In this document: in pieces, positions 12,020-58,001 of the stretch
How the letters are laid out: every line of letters begins with the position of its first letter
Numbering within the stretch: the first letter of the stretch is position 1
From: Stomorhina lunata
Lineage: Eukaryota; Arthropoda; Insecta; Diptera; Rhiniidae
Reading direction: 5' to 3'
Length of the DNA stretch: 64,000 nt
NCBI GenBank assembly: GCA_933228675.1
Contig: OW121740.1
Span: 133,098,940-133,162,939 of the forward strand
Translations under genes and position numbers: made by a program
The notes under the pieces: generated by a model
Told to the model about the DNA's origin: nothing
What the model saw: the letters and a program-made list of their open reading frames with translations, nothing else
The model's database searches: none

Positions 12020-12228
12020 TTGAAATAAATGTAAATTTTATAAAAAATTGTTTCTCAAAGAAAAATCGAAAAATTTTCGATAAAAATTTTTTTCTAAAGA
12101 AAAATTTTCGATAAAAATGTTTTTCTATAGAAATATTTTTCTGTAGAAAAAATTTCTAAAAAATCTTTGATAAAAAATTTTCTACAGAAAAATTTCTAGA
12201 GAAAAATGTTTGATAAAAAAATTTTCAA
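12020..12228. repeat. Short degenerate family B minisatellite
   Basis: Six or seven diverged units of the type TTTTCGATAAAAATTTTTTT / CTATAGAAAAA. It links repeat D to the fold-back at 12229-12690. Confidence 0.75.
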
Positions 12229-12690
12229 AAAGAATGACTATTTGCATTTGATCCCAAATCTGTTACTAATCTCTCTTCAGGAGGATCATCCCCAATTTAG
12301 ACGGATCGAAAACCTCGCATTAATACTTATTTACAAACAAAACTTTTTAGAATTATGTTCATAAACCATAAGTAAAAGCGTAGATCATCGACTGAACAAA
12401 AAACACAAACAATTTTCAGTTTTCATCTTCCTTCACTTCCCACATTCAATCGATGATCTACGCTTTTACTTATGGTTTATGAACATAATTCTAAAAAGTT
12501 TTGTTTGTAAATAAGTATTAATGCGAGGTTTTCGATCTGTCTAAATTGGGGATAATCCTCCTGAAGAGATGGCCTAACCAACCATCGGTTTCTCCGCAAA
12601 CAATTTTTGGCTTTTTATTAATAAATTGGTCTGTTACATTAATAAATAAATGTAACAGATTTGGGATCAAATGCGAATAGTCATTCTTTT
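12229..12690. mobile_element. Fold-back carrying a broken HHR unit
   Basis: Inverted arms: 12230-12391 pairs with 12450-12565 and then, after an interruption, with about 12650-12688. Shared blocks include ACGCTTTTACTTATGGTTTA and TTTGGGATCAAAT. The loop is 12392-12449. The right arm on the plus strand (12546-12600) is homologous to the hammerhead units at 43.9 and 47.0 kb but is inactivated: CTGATGA is CTGAAGA, and about 17 bases holding GAAA, stem III and the cleavage site are missing. The left arm keeps only the stem I side. Confidence 0.75.
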
Positions 12691-14329
12691 TAAAAAATGA
12701 CTAGGATGTTTGGTTCTACTTATGATTTTTCTCATTTCTAATGTTTTTAATACTTTTTATAAATGTATTTAAATATTTGAAAAGAACAGTTTTGTTTTTT
12801 TGTAGTTATAACAAGTGGTTGGACCTTTTGAAAATCCTCCATTTTTATGGGTAAACTGTTTGGGTCTTTTGAAGATATCGATTCGATCCAATAGAAATTC
12901 AATGAGCCTCCATAGATCAGACTTGCTTTTCCTGTAATGGCCGTCAAGCATGTGTGGTGCCAGGTTAGTTTTAAAAACACTAAAAACGATTTTATATTCA
13001 GTTTTACTTCCAAAATCCAAATATGGGATGCAATTAGTTTTAGTTTAGTTTTTTTTTATGTATGGAAAGTGTTGTCCTAAACATCTTCTAGAGAAGAGCT
13101 TTTTGGTGTTACAGGTTCTACCGAGTAGAAACTTTTTTGAAATTCTTCCGTTTAAAGGTTAAAACTGTTATTCGGTCTCAAATTTCCAAACCTTATCTTC
13201 TTTAAAGTGAACCGCCGCACTATGGTATTTCTGCTGCAAAAAAGGCATTTTTTGACTACCACTTTTCAAAAATCCAATAATGCCATTTGATAGAGAAGAA
13301 TCTGGCAATGAAAAATCTATATTTTTTTCCTAAGATATATATACAATATATAGAAAAAATCGGTTGAAGTCAGCTAAATGTTGTGAAACAAAAATTTATG
13401 GTAAAATTATTGAAATTTAAAGGCTTATGTATCGAAGATATTTCAAGTGGCAAAATGTAGGTGTGAATTTTATTGAAGTCTGAGATCTTGTGTTTGTTTT
13501 AAAGAAAAATAAAAAGTTTACTGCATATATAGTTTGGGAGATATGAGCGCATCAAGATTGTCCTATAAAATTTAACATTGGCAGTTTTCGTTGGAGAAAA
13601 AGTCAGTTGGCTCGGTTTACCTCCGTGCTCATAGTGTAATGAAATGAAAGACAAAAGGCTTTTCTTTCGAATTAGCTAAAAAAATGTAGCAACTTTTGTC
13701 AAACTTTTGAAAAAATCAAAATTTAGTAAAAAAAAGTCAGGAATATTGCTTATAATAAAAAACCATTGCATACCTTCAGGCTTAAGTTTTTAATCAAATT
13801 GCAGTTATTAATCCTAACATTAGCTCTTTTATAACAACAATTTATTAATAATTTATTGACAGCTATTTGGAAAAAGTGCATAAGAAATTAAAAAAAAACA
13901 AAACCATATGTTTTAATAAGAAAATTAATGTAAAAACAAATAAAATTAAAAAAAAAATAAAATTGTTCACATAAATAAATCTTGTTATAAAATTTAAAAT
14001 ATAATTATTAAAATGACTTTTTTTCTGTATTGTATAGTGAATTGTGTCATGAACTTGTTAATTGTGGTAATAATGTCGATTTAACAAATCAAATTTTATA
14101 AAAGAAAAAAATTCGAAGCTTACTACTGATGAAGTTGAAATAGTGAAAAGGGCAGTTCAAATGCGGTTTTTTTGTCATTTTTTAAATCGTTGGGTGGAAG
14201 CTCATAGAATTAAATCTTATTTTTTTAAGAAAAATTCGACTTGGTTAGAAAGTAAATATATACTGAATAAATTTTTTTTAAATAATTCGATTTGGATATT
14301 GTAAATTTGTTAGAACTCTTTTTTAGATC
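12691..14329. other. Non-coding stretch with one unrecognised open frame
   Basis: Mostly AT-rich with no feature recognised. On the minus strand, 12769-13020 is open for 83 codons, with a less biased composition than the surroundings (for example HYRKSKSDLWRLIEFLLDRI). I do not recognise the family, and an overlapping second frame is also open, so it could be a transposon remnant, an exon or chance. Confidence 0.35.
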
Positions 14330-15290
14330 AGAAAATAAAAGTGTGCCGAATTTTATCAAATTGTGGGTTATACATTGAAATGTGAAAAAATGGGGGTCCA
14401 AGGGAGGTACCTCAAGGAGTCGTTGGATTTCAACCAAAATTAGTAGGGCTTTTTTCAGGATAAAAAAATAGAAGTGTGCCAAATTTTATCAAATTCTATT
14501 GAAAATTGGGGTTTATACATTGAGAAGAAAAATAAGTGAAAAAATGGGGGTCCAAGGGAGGTACCTCAAGGAGTCGTTGGATTTCAACCAAAATTAGTAG
14601 GGCTCTTTTCCGGATCAAAAAATAGAAGTGTGCCAAATTTGATCAAATTCTATTGAAAATTGGGGTTTATACATTGAGAAGAAAAATAAGTGAAAAAATT
14701 GGGGTCCAAGGGAGGTACCTCAAAGAGTCGTCGGATTTCAACCAAAATTAGTAGGGCTTTTTTCTGGATCAAAGAATAGAGACGTGTTAAATTTTATCAA
14801 ATTCTATTGAAAATTGGGGTTTATACATTGAGAAGAAAAATAAGTGAAAAATGGGGGTCCAAGGGAGGTACCTCAAGGAGTCGTCGGATTTCAGCCAAAA
14901 TTAGTAAGACTTTTTTCTGGATCAAAAAATAGAAGTGTGCCAAATTTTATCAAATTCTATTGAAAATTGGGGTTTATACCTTGAGAAGAAAAATAAGTGA
15001 AAAAATGGGGGTCCAAGGGCGGTACCTTAAGGAGTCGTCGGATTTCAACCAAAACTAATGGAGCTCTTTTCTTGGTCAAATAATAGAGTTATGCCGATTT
15101 TCATGAAATTCTGTTGAAAATTGCGGGTTATACATTGAGAAGAAAAATATGTAAAAAAATGGGGGTCCAAGGGAGGTACCTCAAGGAGTCGTCGGATTTC
15201 AAAGTTTTTTTGAATTTTTCTTATCTATATAAAACTAAATAAGTGTGCCAAATTTCATCGTTGTAGGATAACTCCTTCTATTTTTTGCAG
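14330..15290 (+). repeat. 154-bp satellite, six tandem copies
   Basis: The block GTCCAAGGGAGGTACCTCAA starts at about 14396, 14550, 14704, 14857, 15011 and 15165, so the period is 153-154 bp. Each unit also carries GAGTCGTCGGATTTCA, an AGTAGGGCT block, AGTGTGCCAAATTTTATCAA and TGAGAAGAAAAATA. The palindrome GAGGTACCTC is preserved in nearly all units. The repeat is more GC-rich and longer than the minisatellites and unrelated to them. Confidence 0.93.
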
Positions 15291-15742: not shown

Positions 15743-16940
15743 AGGGCCGATGTTGATTTTGAATAAAACACAAACTATTTAGGAAATTTTTGTAATTTTA
15801 TTTTATTATGATATATTGGTATTATTCAATTATGTATGGAACAAAATATCGGCCAAATGGGCGCCGCGACCACGGCGTCACACCTCCATCCGATGGTCCA
15901 AATTTTCGATGACCCTTAGGCATAATGGAGGTTCTATGCCGTTAATGTGCCGAAATATCTCATCCTTTAGCTCTTGAATTGTTGCTGGCTTATCGACGTA
16001 CACCTTTTCTTTCAAATAACATGATCTTGGCGGCCAATTGACATCGCCATTACGTAAGATAACACGGCCATTGTTTCGTTAGCTGTGTGGCAAGTGGCAC
16101 CGTCCTGCTGAAATCACATATCGTCCACATCCATATTTTCCAATTCGGGCCATAAAAAGTTCGTTATCATCTCACGATAGCGAACACCATTCACAGTAAC
16201 TGCCTGACCGGCCTCATTTTGAAAAAAATACGGCCCGATGATGCCGCCAGCCCATAAACCGCACCAAACAGTCACTCTTTGTGGGTGCTTTGGTTTTTCG
16301 ACAATCACTCTTGGATTCTCATTCGCCCAAATGCGGCAATTCTGTTTATTGACGAATCCACTGAGGTGAAAATGTGCCTCATCACTGAAGATGATTTTCT
16401 TCGAAAATTGATCATCCACTGTTGCCATTTCTTGCCACCATTCTGCCCATTCACGACGTTTGGAATGGTCAAGAGGCTTTAGTTCTTGAGCCAATTGCAC
16501 CTTGTGAGCGTCTTTATGCATAATGTTCATCAACGACGAGCGTGAGAGGTGCAATTGTTGGGCACGACGACGAGTTGAGGTGGACGGCTCTTCAGCCACA
16601 CTATCGCGAATAGCAGCAATTTTTTCTGCAGTACGAGCTGTACGAGCATGCACTGGTGTTCTCACATCTTCTACAGACCCGGTTTGCTCGAATTTTTCCA
16701 AGATTTTTGCGATTGTACGCACATTTGGACGATCAAATTGACCAAAAAAATCACGAAGTGCACGATATGCATTTTGATTTGAATGCCCATTTTCATAATA
16801 AGTCTGGATAACTTTAAAACGTTGTTGGATTGTGTATCTCTCCATGGTTCAAATTGAGTAAGTCTGAAATAGAGAAATATCAAATAAAATTCGGAAAAAA
16901 ACTTGGCGTTTAGGTGTGGTTCACATTCAACATCGGCCCT
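15743..16940 (-). mobile_element. M2: nearly full-length mariner, 1198 bp
   Basis: Perfect 14-bp terminal inverted repeats: AGGGCCGATGTTGA at 15743-15756 and its complement at 16927-16940. The right end is followed by TA, the usual mariner target; the left is preceded by CA, so one copy of the target duplication has mutated. Length is close to the 1.2-1.3 kb usual for mariner elements. It encloses one degraded transposase gene on the minus strand. It is unrelated in its ends to M1. Confidence 0.9.
15830..16845 (-). pseudogene. Inactivated mariner transposase (M2)
   Basis: Tc1/mariner transposases cut and paste DNA using an N-terminal helix-turn-helix DNA-binding region and a DDE/D catalytic triad. 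Here 243 codons are open (16845 to 16117): paired helix-turn-helix domains in about residues 1-110, then FSDEAHFHLSG with the first catalytic Asp at residue 155, and VTVWCGLWAGGIIGP. A TGA at 16114-16116 replaces the Trp codon usually seen before FQQDGATCHTA, which carries the second Asp. Downstream there is a deletion with frameshift after HTANET, then PPRSCYLKEKVYVDKPA, in which the usual segment holding the third Asp has been lost in frame. A further in-frame TGA lies at 15878-15880, before a normal mariner-like C-terminus ending at 15830. It cannot make active enzyme. Confidence 0.92.
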
Positions 16941-25044: not shown

Positions 25045-25080
25045 ATCTTAGTGCAATACACTACAGTAAAACTTTTTAAT
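25045..25080 (+). repeat. HHR-unit 3' scrap at array edge
   Basis: CTTAGTGCAATACACTACAG and AAAACTTTTTAAT match the downstream half of the hammerhead unit (complement of about 43745-43785). It abuts the array starting at 25081; no ribozyme part remains here. Confidence 0.75.
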
Positions 25081-27870
25081 AAAAAATTTTTATACCGAAA
25101 AATTTTCTATCGAAAAGTTTTTATACCGACAAATTTTCGTATAGAAAAATTTTCTACAGAAATTTTCAATAAATTTTTTTCCGCAAATGTTTCTATAAAA
25201 AAGTTTTTATACCCAAAATTTTTCTATAAAAAAATGTTTACACCGAAAAATTTTCTATAGAAAATTTTTTATACCAAAAAATTTTCTATCGAAAATTTTT
25301 TTATACCGAAAAATTTTCTATAGAAAATTATTTTATACCGAAAAATTTTCTATAGAAAATTTTTTTATACCGAAAATTTTCTATAGAAAATTTTTTTATA
25401 CCGAAATATTTTCTACAGGAAATTTTTTTAAACCGAAAAATTTTCTATAAAAAATTTTTTTATACCCAAATATTTTTCACAGGAAATTTTTTTAAATCGA
25501 AAAATTTTCTATAGAAAATTTTTTTATACCGAAAAATTTTCTATAGAAAATTTTTTTATACCGAAAAATTTTCTATAGAAAATTTTTTATGCCGAAAAAT
25601 TTTCTATAGAAAATTTTTTTATACCGAAAAATTTTCTATAGAAAATTTTTTTATACCGAAAAATTGTCTATAGAAAATTTTTTTATACCGAAAAATTTTC
25701 TATAGAAAATTTTTTTATACCGAAAAATTTTCTATAGAAAATTTTTTTATACCGAAAAATTTTCTATAGAAAATTTTTTTATACCGAAAAATTTTCTATA
25801 GAAAATTTTTTTATACCGAAAAATTTTCTATAGAAAATTTTTTTACAACGAAAAATTTTCTATAGAAAATTTTTTTATACCGAAAAATTTTCTATAGAAA
25901 ATTTTTTTATACCGAAAATCTTTCTGTAGAAAATTTTTTTATACCGAAAAACTTTCTATAGAAAATTTTTTATACCGAAAAATTTTCTATAGAAAATTTT
26001 TTTATACCGAAAAACTTTCTATAGAAAATTTTTTATACCGAAAAATTTTCTATAGAAAATTTTTTTATACCGAAAAATTTTCTATAGAAAATTTTTTTAT
26101 ACCGAAAAATTTTCTATAGAAAATTTTTTTATACCGAAAAATTTTCCATAGAAAATTTTTTTATACCGAAAAATTTTCCATAGAAAATTTTTTTATACCA
26201 AAAATTTTCCATAGAAAATTTTTTTATACCGAAAATCTTTCTGTAGAAAATTTTTTTATACCGAAAAACTTTCTATAGAAAATTTTTTATACCGAAAAAC
26301 TTTCTATAGAAAATTTTTTATATCGAAAAATTTTCTATAGAAAATTTTTTTATACCGAAAAATTTTCTATAGAAAATTTTTTTATACCGAAAAACTTTCT
26401 ATAGAAAATTTTTTATACCGAAAAATTTTCTATAGAAAATTTTTTTATACCAAAAAATTTTCTATAGAAAATTTTTTTATACCGAAAAATTTTCTATAGA
26501 AAGTTTTTTTATACCGAAAAATTTTCCATAGAAAATTTTTTTATACCGAAAAATTTTCCATAGAAAATTTTTTTATACCGAAAAATTTTCCATAGAAAAT
26601 TTTTTTATACCGAAAAATTTTCCATAGAAAATTTTTTTATACCGAAAAATTTTCTACAGAAAAATTTTTATACCGAAAATTTTTCTATAGAAAGATTTTT
26701 ATACCGAAAATTTTTCTATAGAAAAATTTTTATACCGAAAATTTTTCTATAGAAAAATTTTTATACCGAAAATTTTTCTATAGAAAAATTTTTATACCGA
26801 AAATTTTTCTATAGAAAAATTTTTATACCGAAAATTTTTCTATAGAAAAATTTTTATACCGAAAATTTTTCTATAGAAAAATTTTTATACCGAAAATTTT
26901 TCTATAGAAAAATTTTTATACCGAAAATTTTTCTATAGAAAAATTTTTATACCGAAAATTTTTCTATAGAAAAATTTTTATACCGAAAATTTTTCTATAG
27001 AAAAATTTTTATACCGAAAATTTTTCTATAGAAAAATTTTTATACCGAAAATTTTTCTATAGAAAAATTTTTATACCGAAAATTTTTCTATAGAAAAATT
27101 TTTATACCGAAAATTTTTCTATAGAAAAATTTTTATGCCGAAAATTTTTCTATAGAAAAATTTTTATACCGAAAATTTTTCTAAGAAAAATTTTTATACC
27201 GAAAATTTTTCTATAGAAAAATTTTTATACCGAAAATTTTTCTATAGAAAAATTTTTATACCGAAAATTTTTCTATAGAAAAATTTTTATACCGAAAATT
27301 TTTCTATAGAAAAATTTTTATACCGAAAATTTTTCTATAGAAAAATTTTTATACCGAAAATTTTTCTATAGAAAAATTTTTATACCGAAAATTTTTCTAT
27401 AGAAAAATTTTTATACCGAAAATTTTTCTATAGAAAAATTTTTATACCGAAAATTTTTCTATAGAAAAATTTTTATACCGAAAATTTTTCTATAGAAAAA
27501 TTTTTATACCGAAAATTTTTCTATAGAAAAATTTTTATACCGAAAAATTTTTATACCGAAAAACTTTCTATAGAAAATTTTTTATACCGAAAAATTTTTC
27601 CAAAAATTTTTTACCGAAAAATTTTCTATAGACAAATTTTTATACCGAAAAATTATCTATAGAAAAATTTTTACACCGAAAATTTTTTATAGAAAAATTT
27701 TTATAAAGAAAAATTTTCTATAGAAAAATTTTTAGACCGAACAATTTTCTGTAAAAAAATTTTTATACCGAAAAATTTTCTATGGAAAAATTTTTATACC
27801 GAAAAATTTTCTGTAGAACAATTTTTATACCGGAAAATTTTCTACAAATTTTTATACCGAAAATTTTAAT
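25081..27870. repeat. Family B minisatellite, linker TATACCG, two blocks
   Basis: Roughly 88 units of TATACCGAAAAATTTTCTAT / AGAAAATTTTTTT. Up to about 26645 the period is 32 bp and the palindrome is flanked by 4-base A/T runs (AATTTTCTATAGAAAATT). From about 26650 to 27540 the period is 31 bp with 5-base runs (TTTTTCTATAGAAAAATTTT) and the units are almost identical. The two types do not intermix. Both margins (25081-25250 and 27545-27870) are degenerate. Confidence 0.96.
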
Positions 27871-29539: not shown

Positions 29540-29890
29540 TTTTATCCAAAAATTTTTCTATAAGAAATTTTTTTGTCAAACATTTTTTTTGTCAAAAATT
29601 TTTCTATAGAAATTTTTTTAAACATTTTTTTATAAAAAATTTTTATCATAAATTTTTCTATAGAAAATTTTTTTATCAAAAATTTTTCTATTGAAATTTT
29701 TTTTATCAAAAATTTTTCTATAGAAAAATTTTTTATGAAAAAATTTTCCATGGAAAATCTTTTTATCAAAAATTTTACTACAGAAAATTTTTGATCAAAA
29801 GTTTTTTATTATAGAAAATATTTTATTAAATATTTTTTAGCAAAAATTTTTCTATAGAAGATTTTTTTCTCAAAAAATTTTCAATAGAAC
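29540..29890. repeat. Family B minisatellite, linker TATCAAA (left part)
   Basis: About 12 units of TATCAAAAATTTTTCTATAG / AAAATTTTT with variable length (28-31 bp). Interrupted by an HHR-unit remnant, after which the same array continues at 30028. Confidence 0.9.
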
Positions 29891-30027
29891 TAACATTTTT
29901 TCGTTTTATAAAAAAACTATTTATTACTATAATAATTAATTGTAATGAATTGGGATCTTAGTGCAATACACTACAGTAAAACTTTTTAATTAAATGTTTG
30001 ATGTCCAAAAATTTTGATAAACCTTTT
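29891..30027 (+). mobile_element. HHR-unit remnant without ribozyme
   Basis: Complement-matches the 43708-43840 part of the hammerhead unit: AACATTTTTTCGTTTTAT, AAACTATTTATTAC, TTAGTGCAATACACTACAG, TTTAATTAAATGTTTGATGT and GATAAACCTTTTT. The 5' half with the hammerhead is absent, and family B units lie on both sides. Confidence 0.8.
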
Positions 30028-30800
30028 TAGAAAATTATTTTATCAAAAATTTTTAGATGCAAATTTTACTACAGAAAATTTTTTTTTTATCAAAAATTTT
30101 TCTATAGAAAAAATTTTGATAACATATTTTATTAAGAATTTTTCTACTGAAAACTTTTTTATCAAAAATTTTTATAAGACAATTTTTTTATTAAAAATTT
30201 TTCTATAGAAAATTTTTTACCAAAAGTTTTTCTATAGAAAATATTTCATTAAAAATTTTTGTCAAAAATGTTTCTATAGAAAATTTTTTTCATGAACTAC
30301 AGAATATTTTTAATAGAAAAAATTTGGATAACATTTTTTGTATCAAAAATTTTTCTATAGAAATTTTTTTTCATCAAAAATTTTTCCATAGAAAATTTGT
30401 TTACCAAAAGTTTTTCTATAGAAAATATTTTATTAAAAATTTGTTATCAAAAATTTTTCTATAAAAAATTTTTTTATCAAAAATTTTTCAATAGAAAATT
30501 TTTTTTATCAAAAATTTTTCAATGGAAAATTTTTTTATCAAAAATTTTACTACAGAAAATTTTTGTATCAAAAATAACTTTTTATTTATCAAAAATTTTT
30601 CTATTGAAAATTTTTTTATCAAAAATTTTTCTATAGAAAATTTTTCTATTGAAATTTTTTTTATCAAAAAATTTTCTAATTTCGTTATCAAAATTTTTTT
30701 TTATTACAAATTTTTCTACAAAAAAATTTTTTTATCAAAAATTTTTCTATAGAAAATTTTTAAATCAAAAATATTAAAATTTTTTTTATCAAAGAAAAAT
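30028..30800. repeat. Family B minisatellite, linker TATCAAA (right part)
   Basis: About 25 units of the same type as 29540-29890, with mixed variants (TACTACAG, CTATTG). Long Ile/Lys/Phe-rich frames on both strands arise from the repeat and are not genes. Confidence 0.92.
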
Positions 30801-40070: not shown

Positions 40071-40793
40071 CAGGGTTATCTATTTTGCGGTTTCAAAAGT
40101 GAACATATAAAATATTTTTTTATGATATTTCTTTTTTATTATAAAGTTTGAATGTTGACATTATGTGTGAAACACTACTTCATTTAAATGACCATCAAGC
40201 GAAATGTTGCAATCATTTATTCTTTTGAGGTAATTTTCTTTTTGTCACATACGAGTATTGGGCGGTATATCAGTCATAACTTGACGCATGTTGGTTTTTA
40301 AGTACTCAAGAGATAAAGGTTTATCTGCATAAACACAATCTTTCGCGTAGCCCCACAAAAAAACTCTAATAGTGTCAAATCGCATGATCTTGATGCCCAG
40401 TTCATATCGCCACGACGAGCAATTACGCGGCCAGGAAATGTCTCTTGCAATAAAGCCATGTTCGCTGGAGTTGTGTGGCATGTGGCACGGTCTTGTTGAA
40501 GTCATGTATTCTCCAAGTCGTATTCTTCAATAATGTGCCGTAAGACAGTCCTAAATCCTGAGAACGACGAAGAATCGACACATTCGGATCTTTGGCAACA
40601 CTTGCACTTACAGCCGCGATATTTTTAGCGGAACGAGCGAAATGATGATGTACAGGCCTTACCATATTTGTAACCGCTCCAGACTCTTCAAATTTCTTTA
40701 CAACTTTGCCAATTGCTTGCATAGTTGGAAAATTATGTAAACCATAATCTCCTTTCAAAGTACGATATGTGGCTGTTGCATAATCACTATTTT
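40071..40793 (-). mobile_element. M1 mariner deletion derivative, 5' end lost
   Basis: Starts with terminal repeat CAGGGTTATC preceded by TA. The minus strand carries the transposase 3' end (equivalents of KPLSLEYLKTNMRQVM and RGDMNW), the second catalytic Asp (QQDRATCHT) and, beyond an internal deletion, the N-terminal half: GDYGLHNFPTMQAIGKVVKK, SAKNIAAVSASVA, RRSQDLGLSYGTL. The deletion fuses SYGTL to IEEYDLEN and removes the first catalytic Asp. Frameshifts and a stop are also present. The N-terminal start and second terminal repeat are missing because an H element abuts at 40794. Confidence 0.88.
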
Positions 40794-41604
40794 TATACCC
40801 TTCACCACCATAAGTGGAAAGGGTATTATAAGTTTGTGCTGATGCATGTAACGGATAGAAATATTTGTCTTAGACTCACCTTTTAGTATAGCAAAAGGCT
40901 TAGAATCAGTTTTTCAGTCAATTTAGCGATGTCAGTCCGTCCGTCCGTCCGTCTGTCTGGCTGGATGGCTGGCTATACCCCCATGTAAACCATGTAATCA
41001 AAGTGCAGGTCGCTATTCTTAAGATAATTTGATCAAATTTGGCACACATCATTTTTTTCTTAGTGGGTCCATGGCTATTGAAATTCGTCAAAATCGGCCC
41101 ATTGTTTATGGTACCTCCCATAGGTCCCACTTCCCGGAATTAATATCAATATTTTTCATGAAATTTAAAACAAATAATATAATAAAACAAAATGTGAACC
41201 AAAATCACTATACCAAATTTCATTGAAATCGGTCCACATTTGTTCATAGCTCCCATACAAACTCTTCTGTAAAAACGTAATAAATTGGATAAAAATCACT
41301 AAAACGCTCGTAGATCTGAAGAAAATGTGAATTTTATGTTTATTTTTTTGCATACATAATTTTTTTAAAAAACTGTAATCAATTTGCCAAATTTCGAGAT
41401 AATCGGTCCACATTTGACCCTAGCTTTCATATAAGTCCAAATGACAGAAACAGCTTAAATATATAAGTTTTGAGAAAATGTTTGTATGATGGCAAAATTT
41501 AGCAAATATTTGTCTTTATACAGGAAAAAGAGCACCTTTGATCTTAATGGTGAAGGGTATCGTATGGTCAAGCTATACCGACTATAGCACTTTCATACTT
41601 GTTT
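40794..41604 (-). mobile_element. H-family dispersed element, copy 2
   Basis: Reverse orientation to 30872-31638. Left end ATACCCTTCACCACCATAAG and GGAAAGGGTAT; then CGTCCGTCCGTCCGTCTGTC, repeated GGTCCACATTTG and GCTCCCATACAAACTCTTCT; right end GAAGGGTATCGTATGGTCAA, then GACTATAGCACTTTCATACT and TGTTT. Full length is about 811 bp. It interrupts M1, but sequence beyond 41604 does not resume M1. No coding capacity. Confidence 0.78.
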
Positions 41605-43299: not shown

Positions 43300-43707
43300 T
43301 ATATAGAAAAGCATTCGTTAAAAAACATTTTTAGTTATAATAAATTTTCATATAGAAAAATTTTTGATAAAAATATTTTTCTGTAGAAACATTTTTGATA
43401 AAAATATTTTTCTGTAGAAAAATTTTTGATAAAAATATTTTTCTATAGAAAAATTTTTGATAAAAATATTTTTCTATAGCAAAATTTTTAATAAAAATAT
43501 TTTTCTATAGAAAAATTTTTGATAAAAATATTTTTCTATAGAAAAATTTTTGATAAAAATATTTTTCTATAGAAAAATTTTTGATAAAAATATTTTTCTA
43601 TAAAATAATTTTTGATAGAAAAATTTTTGATAAAAATATTTTTCTATAGAAAAATTTTTGAAAAAAATATTTTTCTATAGAAAAATTTTTGATAAAAATA
43701 TTTTTCA
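43300..43707. repeat. Family B minisatellite, linker GATAAAAATA (copy 1 of duplication)
   Basis: About 11 units of 31 bp (GATAAAAATATTTTTCTATA / GAAAAATTTTT), preceded by GTTAAAAAACATTTTTAGTT, which recurs at 46122. Together with 43708-46121 it forms the first copy of a tandemly duplicated segment. Confidence 0.95.
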
Positions 43708-43934
43708 AAAAGGTTTATCAAAATTTGGGACATCAAACATTTAATTAAAAAGTTTTACTGTAGTGTATTGCACTAAGAATCCCAATTTATTACAATTATT
43801 TATTATTGTAATAAATAGTTTTTTGATAAAACCAAAAAATGTTGGTGGGGAAACCTTTCCTCGACGCGTTTCGATGGTTGGTTAGACCATCTCATCAGGA
43901 GGATTATCCCTAATTCTAGACAGAGCGAAAACCT
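43708..43934 (-). mobile_element. HHR unit, copy 1 (intact)
   Basis: A non-minisatellite island of about 227 bp inside family B arrays. Read on the minus strand: GAGGTTTTCGCTCTGTC, the hammerhead (43847-43911), CCACCAACATTTTTTGG, GAATTCTTAG-like TTCTTAGTGCAATACACTAC, TTAATTAAATGTTTGATGTC and GATAAACC. It is identical to 46850-47076. Homologues lacking the ribozyme lie at 25045 and 29891, and a broken one at 12229-12690, so the island is a dispersed, probably mobile, sequence. Confidence 0.85.
43847..43911 (-). ncRNA. Hammerhead ribozyme (type I, minimal stem III), copy 1
   Basis: Self-cleaving RNA motif; all conserved core positions are present on the minus strand. CTGATGA is the complement of 43892-43898. 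Stem II is GATGGT/ACCATC (43886-43891 with 43873-43878) with loop CTAACCA. GAA then follows, with A15.1 closing stem III (43869-43872). Stem III is only A-U and C-G around GC (43864-43869), then the cleavage site GUC with C17 at 43863. Stem I is TCCTC/GAGGA (43899-43903 with 43858-43862), extendable after an internal loop by AGGGA/TCCC(C). Cleavage is expected between 43863 and 43862. Very short stem III in type I hammerheads is known from Penelope-like elements and animal retrozymes; activity here is inferred. Confidence 0.88.
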
Positions 43935-46121
43935 CAAATTTTTCGTTATAAAAATTTTCTATATAGACAATTTTTCGTTATAAAAATTTTGTGTATAGAA
44001 AAGTTTTCGTTAAAAAAATTTTTTATATAGAAAATTTTTCGTTATAAAAATTTTCTATATAGAAAATTTTTCGTTATAAAAATTTTCTGTATAGAAAATT
44101 TTTCGTTATAAAAATTTTCTATATAGAAAATTTTTCGTTATAAAAATTTTCTATATAGAAAATTTTTCGTTATAAAAATTTTCTATATAGAAAATTTTTC
44201 GTTATAAAAATTTTCTATATAGAAAATTTTTCGTTATAAAAATTTTCTATATAGAAAATTTTTCGTTATAAAATTTTCTATATAGAAAATTTTTCGTTAC
44301 AAAATTTTCTATATAGAAAATTTTTCGTTACAAAATTTTCTATATAGAAAATTTTTCGTTATAAAAATTTTCTATATAGAAAATTTTTCGTTATAAAAAT
44401 TTTCTATATAGAAAATTTTTCGTTATAAAAATTTTCTATATAGAAAATTTTTCGTTATAAAAATTTTCTATATAGAAAATTTTTCGTTATAAAAATTTTC
44501 TATATAGAAAATTTTTCGTTATAAAAATTTTCTGTATAGAAAATTTTTCGTTATAAAAATTTTCTATATAGAAAATTTTTCGTTATAAAAATTTTCTATA
44601 TAGAAAATTTTTCGTTATAAAAATTTTCTATATAGAAAATTTTTCGTTATAAAAATTTTCTATATAGAAAATTTTTAGTTATAAAAATTTTCTATATAGA
44701 AAATTTTTCGTTATAAAAATTTTCTATATAGAAAATTTTTCGTTATAAAATTTTCTATATTGAAAATTTTTCGTTACAAAATTTTCTATATAGAAAATTT
44801 TTCGTTACAAAATTTTCTATATAGAAAATTTTTCGTTACAAAATTTTCTATATAGAAAATTTTTCGTTATAAAAATTTTCTATATAGAAAATTTTTCGTT
44901 ATAAAAATTTTCTATATAGAAAATTTTTCGTTATAAAAATTTTCTATATAGAAAATTTTTCGTTATAAAAATTTTCTATATAGAAAATTTTTCGTTATAA
45001 AAATTTTCTATATAGAAAATTTTTCGTTATAAAAATTTTCTATATAGAAAATTTTTCGTTATAAAAATTTTCTATATAGAAAATTTTTCGTTATAAAAAT
45101 TTTCTATATAGAAAATTTTTCGTTATAAAAATTTTCTATATAGAAAATTTTTCGTTATAAAAATTTTCTATATAGAAAATTTTTCGTTATAAAAATTTTC
45201 TATATAGAAAATTTTTCGTTATAAAAATTTTCTATATAGAAAATTTTTCGTTATAAAAATTTTCTATATAGAAAATTTTTCGTTATAAAAATTTTCTATA
45301 TAGAAAATTTTTCGTTATAAAAATTTTCTATATAGAAAATTTTTCGTTATAAAAATTTTCTATATAGAAAATTTTTCGTTATAAAAATTTTCTATATAGC
45401 AAATTTTTCGTTATAAAAATTTTCCATATAGAAAATTTTTCGTTATAAAAATTTTCTATATAGAAAATTTTTCGTTATAAAAATTTTTTATATAGAAAAT
45501 TTTTCGTTATAAAAATTTTCTATATAGAAAATTTTTCGTTATAAAAATTTTCTATATAGAAAATTTTTCGTTATAAAAATTTTCTATATAGAAAATTTTT
45601 CGTTATAAAAATTTTCTATATAGAAAATTTTTCGTTATAAAAATTTTCTATATAGAAAATTTTTCGTTATAAAAATTTTCTATATAGAAAATTTTTCGTT
45701 ATAAAAATTTTCTATATAGAACATTTTTCGTTATAAAAATTTTCTATATAGAAAATTTTTCGTTATAAAAATTTTCTATATAGAAAATTTTTCGTTATAA
45801 AAATTTTCTATATAGAAAATTTTTCGTTATAAAAATTTTCTGTATAGAAAATTTTTCGTTATAAAAATTTTCTATTTAGAAAATTTTTCGGTTTAAAAAT
45901 TTTCTATATAGAAAATTTTTCGTTATTAAAATTTTCTATATAGAAAATTTTTCGTTATAAAAATTTTCTATATAGAAAATTTTTCGTTATAAAATTTTCT
46001 ATATAAAAAATTTTTCGTTATAAAAAGTTTCTATATAGAAAATTTTTCGTTATAAAAATTTTCTATATATTTTAGAAAATTTTTCGTTATAAAAATTTAC
46101 TATATAGAAAATTTTTCGTTA
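43935..46121. repeat. Family B minisatellite, linker CGTTATAA (copy 1)
   Basis: About 68 units of CGTTATAAAAATTTTCTATA / TAGAAAATTTTT, 32 bp, almost uniform. Marker variants include TTACAAAATTTT pairs (about 44295 and 44775), TATTTAG...CGGTTTAAAA (about 45873) and an insertion TATATATTTTAG (about 46063). The last two recur in the second copy and identify homologous positions. Confidence 0.97.
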
Positions 46122-46849
46122 AAAAACATTTTTAGTTATAATAAATTATCATATAGAAAAATTTTTGATAAAAATATTTTTCTGTAGAAACATTTTTGAT
46201 AAAAATATTTTTCTGTAGAAAAATTTTTGATAAAAATATTTTTCTATAGAAAAATTTTTGATAAAAATATTTTTCTATAGAAAAATTTTTAATAAAAATA
46301 TTTTTCTATAGAAAAATTTTTGATAAAAATATTTTTCTATAGAAAAATTTTTGATAAAAATATTTTTCTATAGAAAAATTTTTGATAAAAATATTTTTCT
46401 ATAGCAAAATTTTTAATAAAAATATTTTTCTATAGCAAAATTTTTAATAAAAATATTTTTCTATAGAAAAATTTTTGATAAAAATATTTTTCTATAGAAA
46501 AATTTTTAATAAAAATATTTTTCTATAGAAAAATTTTTGATAAAAATATTTTTCCATAGAAAAATTTTTGATAAAAATATTTTTCTATAGAAAAATTTTT
46601 GATAAAAATATTTTTCTATAGAAAAATTTTTGATAAAAATATTTTTCTATAGCAAAATTTTTAATAAAAATATTTTTCTATAGAAAAATTTTTGATAAAA
46701 ATATTTTTCTATAGAAAAATTTTTGATAAAAATATTTTTCTATAAAATAATTTTTGATAGAAAAATTTTTGATAAAAATATTTTTCTATAGAAAAATTTT
46801 TGAAAAAAATATTTTTCTATAGAAAAATTTTTGATAAAAATATTTTTCA
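46122..46849. repeat. Family B minisatellite, linker GATAAAAATA (copy 2)
   Basis: Same start block as 43318 (AAAAAACATTTTTAGTTATA) and same variants (CTATAGCAAAATTTTTAAT, CTATAAAATAATTTTTGATA) as 43300-43707, but about twice as long. The array expanded after duplication or contracted in copy 1. Confidence 0.95.
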
Positions 46850-47076
46850 AAAAGGTTTATCAAAATTTGGGACATCAAACATTTAATTAAAAAGTTTTAC
46901 TGTAGTGTATTGCACTAAGAATCCCAATTTATTACAATTATTTATTATTGTAATAAATAGTTTTTTGATAAAACCAAAAAATGTTGGTGGGGAAACCTTT
47001 CCTCGACGCGTTTCGATGGTTGGTTAGACCATCTCATCAGGAGGATTATCCCTAATTCTAGACAGAGCGAAAACCT
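46850..47076 (-). mobile_element. HHR unit, copy 2 (intact)
   Basis: Base-for-base the same as 43708-43934 as far as I can read, offset 3142 bp. It belongs to the second copy of the tandem duplication, so it is not an independent insertion. Confidence 0.85.
46989..47053 (-). ncRNA. Hammerhead ribozyme, copy 2
   Basis: Same core, stems and cleavage triplet as copy 1, shifted by 3142: CTGATGA is the complement of 47034-47040 and C17 is at 47005. With copy 1 it brackets one complete repeat period, the arrangement needed to excise a unit-length RNA from a minus-strand transcript. Confidence 0.88.
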
Positions 47077-48010
47077 CAAATTTTTCGTTATAAAAATTTT
47101 CTATATAGACAATTTTTCGTTATAAAAATTTTGTGTATAGAAAAGTTTTCGTTAAAAAAATTTTTTATATAGAAAATTTTTCGTTATAAAAATTTTCTAT
47201 ATAGAAAATTTTTCGTTATAAAAATTTTCTGTATAGAAAATTTTTCGTTATAAAAATTTTCTATATAGAAAATTTTTCGTTATAAAAATTTTCTATATAG
47301 AAAATTTTTCGTTATAAAAATTTTCTATATAGAAAATTTTTCGTTATAAAAATTTTCTATATAGAAAATTTTTAGTTATAAAAATTTTCTATATAGAAAA
47401 TTTTTCGTTATAAAAATTTTCTATATAGAAAATTTTTCGTTATAAAAATTTTCTATTTAGAAAATTTTTCGGTTTAAAAATTTTCTATATAGAAAATTTT
47501 TCGTTATTAAAATTTTCTATATAGAAAATTTTTCGTTATAAAAATTTTCTATATAGAAAATTTTTCGTTATAAAATTTTCTATATAAAAAATTTTTCGTT
47601 ATAAAAAGTTTCTATATAGAAAATTTTTCGTTATAAAAATTTTCTATATATTTTAGAAAATTTTTCGTTATAAAAATTTACTATATAGAAAATTTTTCGT
47701 TATAAAAATTTTCTATATAGAAAATTTTTCGTTATAAAAATTTTCTGTATAGAAAATTTTTCGTTATAAAAATTTTCTGTATAGAAAATTTTTCGTTATA
47801 AAAATTTTCTATATAGAAAATTTTTCGTTATAAAAATTTTCTATATAGAAAATTTTTCGTTGTTAAAAAAGTTTTCTATATAGAAAATTTTTCGTTATAA
47901 AAATTTTCTACATAGAAAATTTTTCGTTATAAAAATTTTCTATATAGAAAATTTTTCGTTAAAAAAATTTGCTGCATAGAAAATTTTTCATTATAAAATT
48001 TTTTATAAAA
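47077..48010. repeat. Family B minisatellite, linker CGTTATAA (copy 2)
   Basis: About 29 units. The markers CGGTTTAAAA (about 47470) and TATATATTTTAG (about 47647) match 45885 and 46063, but the stretch between the HHR unit and those markers is about 1.5 kb shorter than in copy 1. The right edge decays over 47860-48010. Confidence 0.95.
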
Positions 48011-50150: not shown

Positions 50151-50886
50151 AAAAGTGCTATCTACATTTTCGACCAAATTGGTTTTTAATGCAAACGTGT
50201 TCCTTGGCTTATCTGTCATATGTCAAATAAATTTTAAGAAAGAAAAATAATTTTAAAACATGTTTTTTTCTAAATTGTGTTTGCGCTATCTATAAGTACT
50301 TTATAATCAAAAAATAATGCTATCTACATTAAAAATATTTGTGGAAAAAATAACAATTGTTATAAAATATACATTGTGATTTATGAAAAGCCAACAAAAT
50401 TGACCACAATTCTCTACAGCGTAGTGTAATCATGGATATCTATAATATACTCGGCCTTTGACCTTAACAGATTGTAAATAAAGGTCATATAAGAAAGATA
50501 ATATCTTGCATTCTACTTATATATTTATAATAAATCTTGTGTTATTCAAAAAACTATTTATTTTAATTTAAATTCGTGATATTTTGATAAAAGCCTCAAT
50601 TTTCATTATATTTTATTTTTTTTGATGTTAAAATAATGCTATCTACTTGCTTTAATATTTAAAACGATACAATTTTAACTCGTAAAAATTGCTATCTACT
50701 ATAGAAGAGCAAATATAAGGAGTTAATAAAAAAAACTTAATTTGCACAAAATCTTAGCCCCAATTTGTATGGTATTGTAAAACAAAGTTTATTTACTACT
50801 CTTATAGTTAATGACGAAAACAGTTTTTTCACTCTCCTGTAAAATTGTAAATATGTAGATAGCACTTTTTGAATATAAACCCTCGG
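50151..50886 (+). mobile_element. E1 short DNA transposon, left-arm copy, truncated
   Basis: Mirror of 56917-57669 but missing the outermost bases of one end, because the palindrome boundary cuts it. GCTATCTAC occurs at 50157, 50319, 50638 and 50691, GCTATCTAT at 50285, and the inverted GTAGATAGC at 50855. It is followed by TA and the M1 3' half. Confidence 0.75.
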
Positions 50887-51334
50887 TATGGTTTCAACAG
50901 TACCACATGCCACGCAACTCGAGCGAATATGGCTTTACTGCAAGAGACATTTCCTGGCAACGTAATTTCTCGTCGTGGCGATATCAACTGGCCACCAAGA
51001 ATATGCGATTTGACACCATTAGGCTTTTTATGTGGGGCTACGCGAAAGACCGTGTTTATACAGATAAACCTTTAACTCTTGAGCACTTAAAAACCAACAT
51101 TTGTCAAGTTATGGCTGAAAAAACGCAAAAGATGTGTCAAAAAGTGGTCGAAAATTACCTCAAAAGAATCAATGCTTGCAACATTTCGCGTGGTGATACT
51201 TTAAATGATGTAGTGTTTCTCACATTATGTCAAGGTTCAAACTTTATAATAGAAAAGAAATATTTATTTTGAAAAAATATTTTATAGGTATTTTATTTAT
51301 GTTCACTTTTGAAACCGCAAAATGGATAACACTG
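50887..51334 (+). mobile_element. M1 mariner 3' half, left-arm copy
   Basis: From about 50893 the plus strand encodes degraded transposase: second-Asp region (QQ.GATCHA-like, damaged), NMALLQETFPGNVISRRGD and NWPPRICDLTPLGF (third catalytic region, with an altered Asp), then a frame change to LFMWGYAKDRVYTDKPLTLE and a C-terminus ending before 51220. It ends with terminal repeat GGATAACACTG and TA. The 5' half is absent on this arm; it is present only in the right arm's flank. Confidence 0.85.
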
Positions 51335-53027
51335 TACTTTCAACAGATAGATGGATTCAGAATAAATATCAATTCTTTTTTTTGAGCTATTATTAAGGAA
51401 GTTACAAACCGAATAACAATCCCAATATACCCCCATTCTTTTTGATGTTGAGTATAAAAAGTTTCGATCGTTAAGGGATATTTCGCTTGACTATCGAAAC
51501 TTACGACAAGGAATACCGACATTTACACAAAACAAAATTTATTGATTTAAAAAAATCTTGTCTTTTAAACTTTTGGATTTTTAAAGAAGTTGTTCTAGTT
51601 TACCATATCTTCAAAACGACTTTTTCAATTCTATTGAAAAAAATCATTGGACTTAAAACAAAATTGTCCTTAAGACGTTTAAATACAAGATTTTTGTATG
51701 ATCAACGCCTTTAGAGTTATCCATATTCCAATGTAAAAAAATTTTTTAGCTCAAAATCGATAAAGTTTTCTTTTTCAAAAATTCATAAAAAATCAAAAAT
51801 GACAAAAATTTCTGCGAAAAAATTTTAAAAGCCACAAAATCTAAAAAAGCTGTATTCAACTAAAATACTAAAATTGTTTCTTTAAAAATCTGGATCAAAA
51901 ATGTTTTTATGTTGAACCTTTATCGAAATTTTAAACCATAAATTAATCAAATATTTTTCTAGAATAATTTCGAATTAAAAATGTTGCTTAAAATATCTGA
52001 ATTGAAAACTAATATATATATATATTTCCTTACTAAAGAAAATAGTTAGTTATAGGTTGAAAGATAAAACAAAATTAAAAGTTCTTACCTTCCAAAAATC
52101 TCGACTTCTCTTTTAATTGTACCCAACTGTTATTAACTTATGCCAGCCAGTCTTAGCAATATCTACCTTCTAAGCAAAAACACTTATCATATCAAAAACG
52201 TATCTACGTATACGTATCTACCAACTTCTTATAAATATTGTCTGTACGTCTAATATGCTGGCTTTACATTATTAGATATTTTGCTTTTTCATAACAGCAA
52301 TTATGTTGCCCAAACCTTCATGCTGTTGCTATTCCTGCTTCACTTCACATTCCATTTTTTCTCCTTAGTCTGCTTTTATCCTAATTTTCGTTATTATCAG
52401 CAACATATAACAACAACAGCTATCATCATCAAACCAACATCATCATCTATGCTAACCAGCATTGTTACAATAATATCATCAACATCATCATTATCAACAT
52501 CATTATTATAATAATATGTATTCCAATGTTTAAGCTTTATGATGGCTAAAAAGAATTTATGTAAAGCTCTAAAATAAATTACAAAATTATAATCAGTTTC
52601 TGGTTATATAGACACACACAAACGTACTTGCCTATACACATATTTACATTTATATAAATATTTATATGTAGGTTTAAATATGTACGTGTATGTGTGTTTA
52701 TTTCTTTTGGACTTATGTATATATGTATATATATATATATGTGCTAAGATTTCTAGTTGTTGTCTTAGGTTAGCCGTCTTAACAGAAGACGACAACGTTG
52801 AGGAAAGTCCAGCTGCTTAGAAAAGAATAACCCCAAAAAGGAATCTATGTCTTGATATCCTGCTGCTGTCATCAGATTATTTTTTTGTGTGTTACTTTAT
52901 AGCAATCATGTACTTTTGTCTTCGTATGTATTTAGGTTTTGATTTTTTTTTAAGAATTGTTTAAGGGAAGTTTGCAATTCTTCCGCACACTTTATGCAAA
53001 GTTTTCATGCGATTTTTGAGTATCTAG
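51335..53027. other. Palindrome left arm, unique part
   Basis: Non-coding; mirrored exactly at 54776-56468. Contains ATC/AAC-rich trinucleotide tract (52410-52515), a TA microsatellite (about 52724-52741) and nothing recognised as a gene. The paired frames (for example 52281-52511) are low-complexity. Confidence 0.6.
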
Positions 53028-54775: not shown

Positions 54776-56468
54776 CTAGATACTCAAAAATCGCATGAAA
54801 ACTTTGCATAAAGTGTGCGGAAGAATTGCAAACTTCCCTTAAACAATTCTTAAAAAAAAATCAAAACCTAAATACATACGAAGACAAAAGTACATGATTG
54901 CTATAAAGTAACACACAAAAAAATAATCTGATGACAGCAGCAGGATATCAAGACATAGATTCCTTTTTGGGGTTATTCTTTTCTAAGCAGCTGGACTTTC
55001 CTCAACGTTGTCGTCTTCTGTTAAGACGGCTAACCTAAGACAACAACTAGAAATCTTAGCACATATATATATATATACATATATACATAAGTCCAAAAGA
55101 AATAAACACACATACACGTACATATTTAAACCTACATATAAATATTTATATAAATGTAAATATGTGTATAGGCAAGTACGTTTGTGTGTGTCTATATAAC
55201 CAGAAACTGATTATAATTTTGTAATTTATTTTAGAGCTTTACATAAATTCTTTTTAGCCATCATAAAGCTTAAACATTGGAATACATATTATTATAATAA
55301 TGATGTTGATAATGATGATGTTGATGATATTATTGTAACAATGCTGGTTAGCATAGATGATGATGTTGGTTTGATGATGATAGCTGTTGTTGTTATATGT
55401 TGCTGATAATAACGAAAATTAGGATAAAAGCAGACTAAGGAGAAAAAATGGAATGTGAAGTGAAGCAGGAATAGCAACAGCATGAAGGTTTGGGCAACAT
55501 AATTGCTGTTATGAAAAAGCAAAATATCTAATAATGTAAAGCCAGCATATTAGACGTACAGACAATATTTATAAGAAGTTGGTAGATACGTATACGTAGA
55601 TACGTTTTTGATATGATAAGTGTTTTTGCTTAGAAGGTAGATATTGCTAAGACTGGCTGGCATAAGTTAATAACAGTTGGGTACAATTAAAAGAGAAGTC
55701 GAGATTTTTGGAAGGTAAGAACTTTTAATTTTGTTTTATCTTTCAACCTATAACTAACTATTTTCTTTAGTAAGGAAATATATATATATATTAGTTTTCA
55801 ATTCAGATATTTTAAGCAACATTTTTAATTCGAAATTATTCTAGAAAAATATTTGATTAATTTATGGTTTAAAATTTCGATAAAGGTTCAACATAAAAAC
55901 ATTTTTGATCCAGATTTTTAAAGAAACAATTTTAGTATTTTAGTTGAATACAGCTTTTTTAGATTTTGTGGCTTTTAAAATTTTTTCGCAGAAATTTTTG
56001 TCATTTTTGATTTTTTATGAATTTTTGAAAAAGAAAACTTTATCGATTTTGAGCTAAAAAATTTTTTTACATTGGAATATGGATAACTCTAAAGGCGTTG
56101 ATCATACAAAAATCTTGTATTTAAACGTCTTAAGGACAATTTTGTTTTAAGTCCAATGATTTTTTTCAATAGAATTGAAAAAGTCGTTTTGAAGATATGG
56201 TAAACTAGAACAACTTCTTTAAAAATCCAAAAGTTTAAAAGACAAGATTTTTTTAAATCAATAAATTTTGTTTTGTGTAAATGTCGGTATTCCTTGTCGT
56301 AAGTTTCGATAGTCAAGCGAAATATCCCTTAACGATCGAAACTTTTTATACTCAACATCAAAAAGAATGGGGGTATATTGGGATTGTTATTCGGTTTGTA
56401 ACTTCCTTAATAATAGCTCAAAAAAAAGAATTGATATTTATTCTGAATCCATCTATCTGTTGAAAGTA
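54776..56468. other. Palindrome right arm, unique part
   Basis: Exact reverse complement of 51335-53027. No gene recognised. Confidence 0.6.
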
Positions 56469-58001
56469 CAGTGTTATCCATTTTGCGGTTTCAAAAGTGA
56501 ACATAAATAAAATACCTATAAAATATTTTTTCAAAATAAATATTTCTTTTCTATTATAAAGTTTGAACCTTGACATAATGTGAGAAACACTACATCATTT
56601 AAAGTATCACCACGCGAAATGTTGCAAGCATTGATTCTTTTGAGGTAATTTTCGACCACTTTTTGACACATCTTTTGCGTTTTTTCAGCCATAACTTGAC
56701 AAATGTTGGTTTTTAAGTGCTCAAGAGTTAAAGGTTTATCTGTATAAACACGGTCTTTCGCGTAGCCCCACATAAAAAGCCTAATGGTGTCAAATCGCAT
56801 ATTCTTGGTGGCCAGTTGATATCGCCACGACGAGAAATTACGTTGCCAGGAAATGTCTCTTGCAGTAAAGCCATATTCGCTCGAGTTGCGTGGCATGTGG
56901 TACTGTTGAAACCATACCGAGGGTTTATATTCAAAAAGTGCTATCTACATATTTACAATTTTACAGGAGAGTGAAAAAACTGTTTTCGTCATTAACTATA
57001 AGAGTAGTAAATAAACTTTGTTTTACAATACCATACAAATTGGGGCTAAGATTTTGTGCAAATTAAGTTTTTTTTATTAACTCCTTATATTTGCTCTTCT
57101 ATAGTAGATAGCAATTTTTACGAGTTAAAATTGTATCGTTTTAAATATTAAAGCAAGTAGATAGCATTATTTTAACATCAAAAAAAATAAAATATAATGA
57201 AAATTGAGGCTTTTATCAAAATATCACGAATTTAAATTAAAATAAATAGTTTTTTGAATAACACAAGATTTATTATAAATATATAAGTAGAATGCAAGAT
57301 ATTATCTTTCTTATATGACCTTTATTTACAATCTGTTAAGGTCAAAGGCCGAGTATATTATAGATATCCATGATTACACTACGCTGTAGAGAATTGTGGT
57401 CAATTTTGTTGGCTTTTCATAAATCACAATGTATATTTTATAACAATTGTTATTTTTTCCACAAATATTTTTAATGTAGATAGCATTATTTTTTGATTAT
57501 AAAGTACTTATAGATAGCGCAAACACAATTTAGAAAAAAACATGTTTTAAAATTATTTTTCTTTCTTAAAATTTATTTGACATATGACAGATAAGCCAAG
57601 GAACACGTTTGCATTAAAAACCAATTTGGTCGAAAATGTAGATAGCACTTTTTGAATATAAAACCTCGATATATTCTCGTATTCTTCAATAGCAGGCAAA
57701 TACAAGTCGGTCATCGTATAACCATAACGCTCCAAATTCATGGAATCGGCACATTCTAGTCTTCGGCAGCACTTTCACTTACAGCAGCGATATTTTATTT
57801 GTGACCGCAATCTCTTCAAATTCAATCATAATTTCGCCAATTGCTTGCGTAGTTGGACGATTATGAAAACCATAATCTCCTCTTATAGCACGATCCATGT
57901 CAGACTTTCAACTGAAAAGAAAAAAATTGGTTTAAAAACTTAGTTTGACAGATGTCGAATTCCAGTCCTACTCTTTTGAAACCACGAAATGGATAAGCCG
58001 A
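56469..58001 (-). mobile_element. M1 mariner, both ends present, interrupted by E1
   Basis: Ends CAGTGTTATCC (56469, preceded by TA) and GGATAAGCCGA (to 58001, followed by TA). On the minus strand the 5' part (57670-58001) has a shortened leader, N-terminal scraps and a frame ending YTMTDLYLPAIEEYEN, the region just before the second catalytic Asp. E1 (56917-57669) interrupts there, and the 3' half continues to 56469. This copy keeps more sequence before IEEYD than the 21.6- and 40.1-kb copies, so its internal deletion is different. The 3' half lies in the palindrome. Confidence 0.82.
56917..57669 (-). mobile_element. E1: 753-bp non-autonomous DNA transposon nested in M1
   Basis: Terminal inverted repeats of about 31 bp (outer TCGAGGTTTTATATTCAAAA, inner CCGAGGGTTTATATTCAAAA, both continuing AGTGCTATCTAC) flanked by TA at 56915-56916 and 57670-57671. 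The motif GCTATCTAC or a one-base variant is repeated several times inside, like subterminal transposase-binding repeats. There is no transposase. The TA target suggests Tc1/mariner superfamily mobilisation, which is inference. Confidence 0.8.

Follow-up and report, generated by a model that had tools for sequence, protein, structure and literature searches.

The family described below bears on how animal retrozymes move. In the 2020 account of these elements (PMC7229834; this and the other papers are cited from excerpts of their text), Penelope-like elements (PLEs) were proposed as the mobilisers and called 'a strong candidate', on the grounds of shared hammerhead ribozymes, tandem copies and co-existence. 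The retrozyme units described there measure about 170-400 nt, and hammerhead-flanked circles range from 150 to more than 1000 nt. PLEs carry minimal hammerheads, whose role is given as unknown (PMC7761336). Their pLTRs can be inverted, with a tail of 31 bp at one of the two inverted ends, and they make target duplications of 8-10 bp; a host gene was apparently mobilised by them in trans (PMC3846280). The PLE of Anolis cuts and extends both strands, prefers AT-rich DNA and begins its cDNA within an internal stem-loop, where the distance between two start sites makes up the 'tail'; the activity of its hammerhead is dispensable for insertion in vitro (PMC11167929). The high-copy retrozyme family described here carries footprints of the kind given in PLE papers as signatures of PLEs, and the presence of these footprints in the same genome as elements with reverse transcriptase (RT) and GIY-YIG domains makes the link between retrozymes and PLEs testable in one organism.

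The window, the 64-kb stretch of DNA analysed here, reads on its minus strand, from 43903 to 43858, TCCTC-CTGATGA-GATGGT-CTAACCA-ACCATC-GAAAC-GCGTC-GAGGA. Stem I (UCCUC/GAGGA) has 5 bp and stem II (GAUGGU/ACCAUC) 6 bp, and the core of CUGAUGA, GAAA and a GUC site is exact throughout; the conserved CUGANGA, GAAA and UH of a type I hammerhead, together with stems I and II, are all present. The initial annotation had claimed every core base and correct stems I and II on this strand, in a hammerhead of type I whose stem III is minimal. On direct reading the bases and stems agree exactly, and we judge the type to be right. It had not mentioned a second copy, which lies inside a 710-bp exact repeat; 36 nt of the first copy recur exactly at 47005-47040. 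Cleavage is predicted after 43863 in the first copy and after 47005 in the second.

43858-43903, minus strand: type I hammerhead ribozyme, copy 1 (direct read, Rfam, descriptor scan, shuffles)
47000-47045, minus strand: identical second hammerhead (core pattern match, descriptor scan)

The initial annotation had placed the ribozyme in a small island in AT-rich minisatellite DNA. We replace the picture of an isolated motif: the ribozyme belongs to a 488-bp family that is dispersed and has 792 exact cores, in a copy truncated at its 5' end and inserted into the minisatellite. The assembly containing the window comprises 728 Mb in 104 contigs, and the exact 36-nt core was counted 387 + 405 times in it, against none for a reversed-pattern control. 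A query with the 201-base island gave 838 first-look candidates, of which 40 were scored, all about 100% identical. We fetched all 38 rows of that search outside the window, amounting to 30 loci, and 20 further loci covering 23 of 100 listed core places, taken in list order with loci already fetched excluded. Throughout the fetched loci the core is part of a unit of 488 bp or of a fragment of that unit, with units arranged head to tail in places. One locus (L009), the source of the reference unit, has five ribozymes at exact 488-bp spacing, in four complete identical units and a partial one. Sampled copies are mostly 98-100% identical. The unit has a GC content of 31% and holds no frame of 90 aa and no RT or GIY-YIG frame. 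No RT domain was found in the 10 of 24 window ORFs scanned, in agreement with the earlier remark that no reverse transcriptase lies nearby; this fits a non-autonomous element, with RT and GIY-YIG elements elsewhere in the genome. As in retrozymes, the tandem units are non-coding and bounded by hammerheads of type I, and the predicted circular fold is highly self-paired; at 488 bp the unit lies above the 170-400 nt described for them. We read the family as a non-autonomous, non-LTR retrozyme without protein genes.

Stem III consists of 2 bp (A-U, C-G) around a 2-nt loop, an arrangement that is sterically doubtful in a monomer. Since ACGCGU is self-complementary, two ribozymes could instead form a common 6-bp stem III. 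The hammerhead fold of the monomer is predicted at -15.6 kcal/mol against -18.4 kcal/mol for the best fold, so the minimum-energy monomer is not the hammerhead; the hammerhead dimer is predicted at -39.7 kcal/mol, two best monomers at -36.8 and the unconstrained co-fold at -42.6, and as a set these values tip neither way. Folded as a circle, the 488-bp unit is predicted to reach -118.5 kcal/mol against -83.9 +/- 6.7 for 100 shuffles (z -5.2, none as low), with the ribozyme core partly paired otherwise. Three further structures belong to this region.

43848-43910, minus strand: hammerhead with an outer extension of stem I (GGGA/UCCC) past an internal loop (energy of the named fold)
43786-43815, minus strand: 10-bp palindromic hairpin 3' of the ribozyme (TTTATTACAA / TTGTAATAAA) (alignment, covariation)
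43761-43775, minus strand: stem-loop TAGTG-CAATA-CACTA, immediately 5' of the short 3'-end site (folding)

Among eight aligned relatives, 90% of the cells of the palindromic hairpin are paired and three of its 10 pairs have changes on both sides; the paired share is 90% for stem I, 71% for stem II and 75% for the small stem-loop. For the whole 26-pair structure the covariation score, drawn from few and related sequences, was equalled by none of 500 shuffles, and the count of pairs with double changes was equalled in 30 of them.

Pieces of at least 93% identity were joined into clusters, with weaker diverged copies left out, and the 50 loci gave 52 clusters; L014 and L025 have two each, the second of L014 being a short piece of a diverged copy. 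With L072 removed as a flank duplicate and L075 because the fetched stretch stops inside it, 50 insertions remain: 37 in a single orientation, 13 head-to-head pairs and no tail-to-tail pair. Their 3' ends lie at two CTTTTTAA sites, 40 nt apart, with the first base at unit 448 or 488.

43744-43752, minus strand: short 3'-end site (CTTTTTAAT), at which some members of the family end
43707-43713, minus strand: long 3'-end site (CCTTTTT), the end point of the window copies

Single-orientation insertions have 27 long and 10 short 3' ends, and of the pairs ten are long with short, one long with long, one short with short and one has an odd end. Finding at least 10 long-with-short pairs among the 12 classifiable has a probability of 0.019 at 50:50, in a small sample of 13 pairs. 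With independent ends at the pooled single-copy frequencies it is 0.0025, a rough figure because short ends make up 3 of 22 singles in the 30 best-scoring loci and 7 of 15 in the 20 others. The first 30 loci hold 32 clusters, and an automatic search of their flanks turned up exact repeats of 7-13 nt in six (L012, L016, L017, L021, L026 and L038; for instance TAAAAATTAGTTT in L021); by eye, L011 (ATCGATTTAT) and L030 (AAAATTTTATA) have one too. The automatic search covered small offsets, in targets that are repetitive, and gave no exact repeat at all in 16 of the 32. Both flanks are minisatellite-like in 27 of 49 insertions, compared with 31% of 2000 random window sites. Head-to-head inverted copies (13 of 50) and an optional tail of 30-40 nt on one end (40 nt here, in the 10 long-with-short pairs of 13) are the marks of PLE insertion, and the anatomy is that described for PLEs, the 'tail' included. 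The kinship with PLEs and animal retrozymes that the initial annotation suggested is, we judge, right.

The arms also bear on the template. In 17 of 63 the arm is longer than one unit, which indicates that the cDNA crossed a unit junction, as on a circle or a multimer. None of the 63 insertion 5' ends falls at the cleavage site (unit 335-341), and there is hence no sign of a cut linear RNA as template. Among the loci L009-L038 and L066-L085, 13 of the 63 arms have their 5' ends at unit 129-137, a concentration never equalled in 5,000 random sets and far from the cleavage site; this hot spot might be a transcript start or an enzyme stop. Private variants were compared as a possible sign of a single circular template, and they point neither way. 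They are shared between the two units of L084 (two singletons) and between the two arms of L013 (one). Overall, with end artefacts and one variant present in 42 of 52 clusters included, 5 are shared and 9 unshared in tandem, and 3 and 27 in inverted arrangements.

We propose, with good confidence, that the window island is a non-autonomous retrozyme copy with a 488-nt unit, spread by target-primed reverse transcription with a PLE protein. Tandem copies would be transcribed and their hammerheads would cut the multimers, perhaps paired through the palindromic ACGCGU; the unit RNAs would presumably be joined into highly folded circles. A PLE protein would bind the region after the ribozyme and cleave both strands of AT-rich DNA, and cDNA would start at one of the two CTTTTTAA sites, aided by A-rich target ends. 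That the family has two 3' ends is seen directly in the insertions; the enzyme and the priming on both strands are inferred, as are ribozyme cleavage and the circles. Copying round a circle or along a multimer would yield head-to-tail 488-bp repeats, and extension from both target strands would yield head-to-head pairs, usually with one arm tailed and one tailless. The window copy would be such an insertion, 5'-truncated, placed in minisatellite and duplicated locally afterwards. The footprint indicates a class of enzyme and does not pin down an individual PLE family. It is tempting to generalize, and here we put the chances at about even: a PLE protein may use the two strands of a single double-strand break to copy a circular RNA made by the ribozyme, with a choice of two fixed start points on each side, so that a single event would give head-to-head cDNAs, one tailed and one tailless, and animal retrozymes may be obligate satellites of PLEs. 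The asymmetry of long and short paired ends may in turn shed light on the way PLEs write cDNA into the two broken strands.

PLEs are present in this genome. Two Pfam GIY-YIG matches above cut-off were found genome-wide, one presumably SLX1-like (L040) and the other (L041) which we take to be PLE-type. The latter, used as query, gave 206 candidates, of which 150 were scored as matches; some of these are fragments of a single copy. Open frames of 830-864 aa contain 11 of the 150, and some matches have inverted or tandem neighbours. At C11:74119079-74125413, PLE endonuclease matches at exact 2977-bp spacing form tandem copies with an inverted copy beside them. RVT_1 was detected in the middle pieces of all three long frames tested (L086-L088), so that RT and GIY-YIG share one frame, the defining pair of PLEs; NCBIfam matches were all far under the cut-offs.

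The alternative that survives best, to our mind a possible but unlikely one, derives the unit by deletion from a PLE: it would be a pseudo-LTR that has shrunk, not a retrozyme of separate origin, and its hammerhead would be inherited and not needed for spread; as to the enzyme it overlaps with the retrozyme model. Such a derivative would share the insertion anatomy of PLEs, as the family does, and the order of ribozyme, stem-loop and 3'-end sites is that of the Anolis PLE (PMC11167929), whose insertion in vitro is also independent of ribozyme activity. The diverged relatives at L022 5816-5987 and L017 354-428 have CTGATGAT before stem II. Their extra base after CUGAUGA resembles the hammerhead-like strings of the PLEs here and is a point for descent from a PLE; the abundant family is without it. 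These strings have one additional base ahead of stem II; they stand in PLE 5' or 3' regions and were picked out by eye or with a loose pattern in L044, L047, L051 and L052 and likewise in L054-L057, L060, L061, L064 and L065; a match in L062 looks spurious. A strict ribozyme scan of 12 PLE 5' regions gave no hammerhead. What weighs against a deletion derivative is that none of these 12 5' regions is similar to the unit, that the unit holds no frame of 90 aa, and that exact 488-bp multimers suit a retrozyme. The 12 PLE 3' regions gave one 34-nt match to the unit (85%, E 6e-6), a weak likeness in an AT-rich, palindrome-like stretch. In the retrozyme an outer stem encloses a stem-loop. The minimum-energy folds of eight PLE 3' regions have this arrangement in three cases (L044, its tandem sister L055, and L051) and lack it in L047, L048, L049, L056 and L052, and a start structure common to PLEs and the retrozyme is only partly backed by these models.

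Twin priming produces inversions in LINE insertions, and the family might on that account have been spread by a LINE or another non-PLE reverse transcriptase, with twin priming as the source of its inverted pairs. A preference for A-rich DNA would suit this equally, not being specific to PLEs. We nonetheless hold it to be improbable, given that all 13 inverted pairs are head-to-head with their 3' ends outward and 10 of them join a long to a short end. PLE pairs of the same genome are alike in two of the six fetched (L054/L055 and L056/L057), where one arm falls about 40-48 nt short of its partner; in one of these two pairs the flank repeat CCTAATAGTTTT is visible by eye. The rest do not show this: in L060/L061 one arm stops directly after the ribozyme-like string, the ends being unequal elsewhere than at the tail, and the remaining three run into minisatellite where their ends are unreadable.

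Within the window, the family is represented by the following.

43707-43941, minus strand: 5'-truncated retrozyme copy (unit about 260-488 + TTTTT), long 3' end, in minisatellite
46849-47083, minus strand: second copy of that truncated insertion, by local duplication
43522-44231, unstranded: 710-bp exact repeat, copy one, with the ribozyme island flanked on both sides by minisatellite
46664-47373, unstranded: 710-bp exact repeat, copy two, at an offset of 3142
43936-46846, unstranded: 32-bp AT-rich minisatellite array adjoining the insertion
29889-30034, plus strand: 5'-truncated relative without ribozyme (unit from 357, long 3' end), within minisatellite
25046-25084, plus strand: 39-nt fragment truncated at its 5' end (short 3' end, unit 422-460), at a minisatellite edge
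about 12193-12736, unstranded: old inverted pair belonging to the family, head to head and diverged

The diverged pair has its minus arm at about 12193-12330 and its plus arm at about 12519-12736, and its ribozyme is damaged by a deletion. One insertion followed by local duplication explains both islands. We rejected the idea that the window holds a 'giant retrozyme' with a unit of 3142 bp, since the unit measures 488 bp at other loci and the repeat in the window takes in minisatellite at either side. With both window copies inside a 710-bp exact repeat bordered by minisatellite, the motif could be taken for a minisatellite component amplified by unequal exchange, its ribozyme an inactive bystander. 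This very improbable reading is largely refuted: the family is dispersed and its insertions have defined ends, a motif test finds minisatellite missing from one or both sides in 22 of 49, and local duplication accounts for the second window copy alone. The same window contains a 154-bp tandem repeat at 14382-15202, which differs from the AT-rich 29-32-bp minisatellites, and transposase-like remnants with a DUF4817 helix-turn-helix domain at 16117-16848 and 40426-40869, both on the minus strand, which are presumably mariner-like. A large inverted duplication centred near 53.9 kb (50859-51272 with 56531-56944, and 52610-52699 with 55104-55193) has identical ORFs on both arms around a 29-bp minisatellite, and is either a long palindrome or an assembly artefact.

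A covariance-model search was among the checks that had been proposed for the hammerhead. In a search of 201 bases the Rfam model RF00163 (Hammerhead_1) matched 43857-43904 with 22 bits and E 0.0032, a score that falls short of the gathering score of 34 bits, which is a curators' threshold and not a structural criterion. RF00163 was not reported in a whole-window scan at the gathering cut-off, the hammerhead was not among the 150 of 160 matches listed from a whole-window scan by E-value, and no Rfam match at E 0.05 came from the 9.2 kb containing the five-ribozyme array. A descriptor scan of the 64 kb marked two places on the minus strand, 43898 and 47040, both the same hammerhead sequence. 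In 400 dinucleotide shuffles of the window a loose descriptor matched 30 times and a strict one (5, 6 and 2 bp) once; 20,000 shuffles of the island gave the strict one no match. The plain core pattern has three matches in the window (both copies and an unrelated one at 37628 on the plus strand) where 0.08 are expected. A mere chance likeness to a hammerhead, for which the score below the gathering cut-off might be cited, is scarcely credible beside that single strict match in 400 shuffles and a diverged relative (L027) that retains stem I, the CUGANGA and GAAACGCGUC strings and five of the pairs in stem II. From these comparisons the hammerhead is, as a sequence, genuine beyond chance.

Among known systems, the family resembles the animal non-LTR retrozymes of Cervera and de la Pena (2020, PMC7229834, as excerpted) in its non-coding head-to-tail repeats with type I hammerheads, its low GC content, its self-paired predicted circular fold, its dispersal and, where readable, its flank repeats of more than 4 bp. 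It departs from their description in that account by the 488-bp unit, the minimal stem III of PLE kind, the head-to-head pairs and the two 3' ends with a tail. A limited literature search met no description of PLE-style ends of retrozymes, and the available portions of PMC7936874 and PMC12910113 contain nothing on this family. With PLEs, as excerpted from PMC11167929 and PMC3846280, it shares tandem or partial-tandem copies, head-to-head inverted ends, a hammerhead, AT-rich targets and an optional tail of about 30-40 nt on one inverted end; their target duplications of 8-10 bp (PMC3846280) compare with 7-13 nt here where readable. Unlike PLEs, the unit is without an RT or GIY-YIG frame and is not clearly similar to the 12 PLE 5' regions. 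The hammerhead satellites of newt, schistosome and Dolichopoda cave crickets likewise place hammerheads in animal repetitive DNA, whereas here short arrays are dispersed by insertion and the minisatellite forms the surroundings, not the ribozyme-bearing repeat (PMC7229834). Plant LTR retrozymes, in the same excerpts, are also non-autonomous with a hammerhead-delimited unit, and differ in having type III hammerheads, LTRs, 4-bp target duplications and a length of about 700 bp (PMC7229834).
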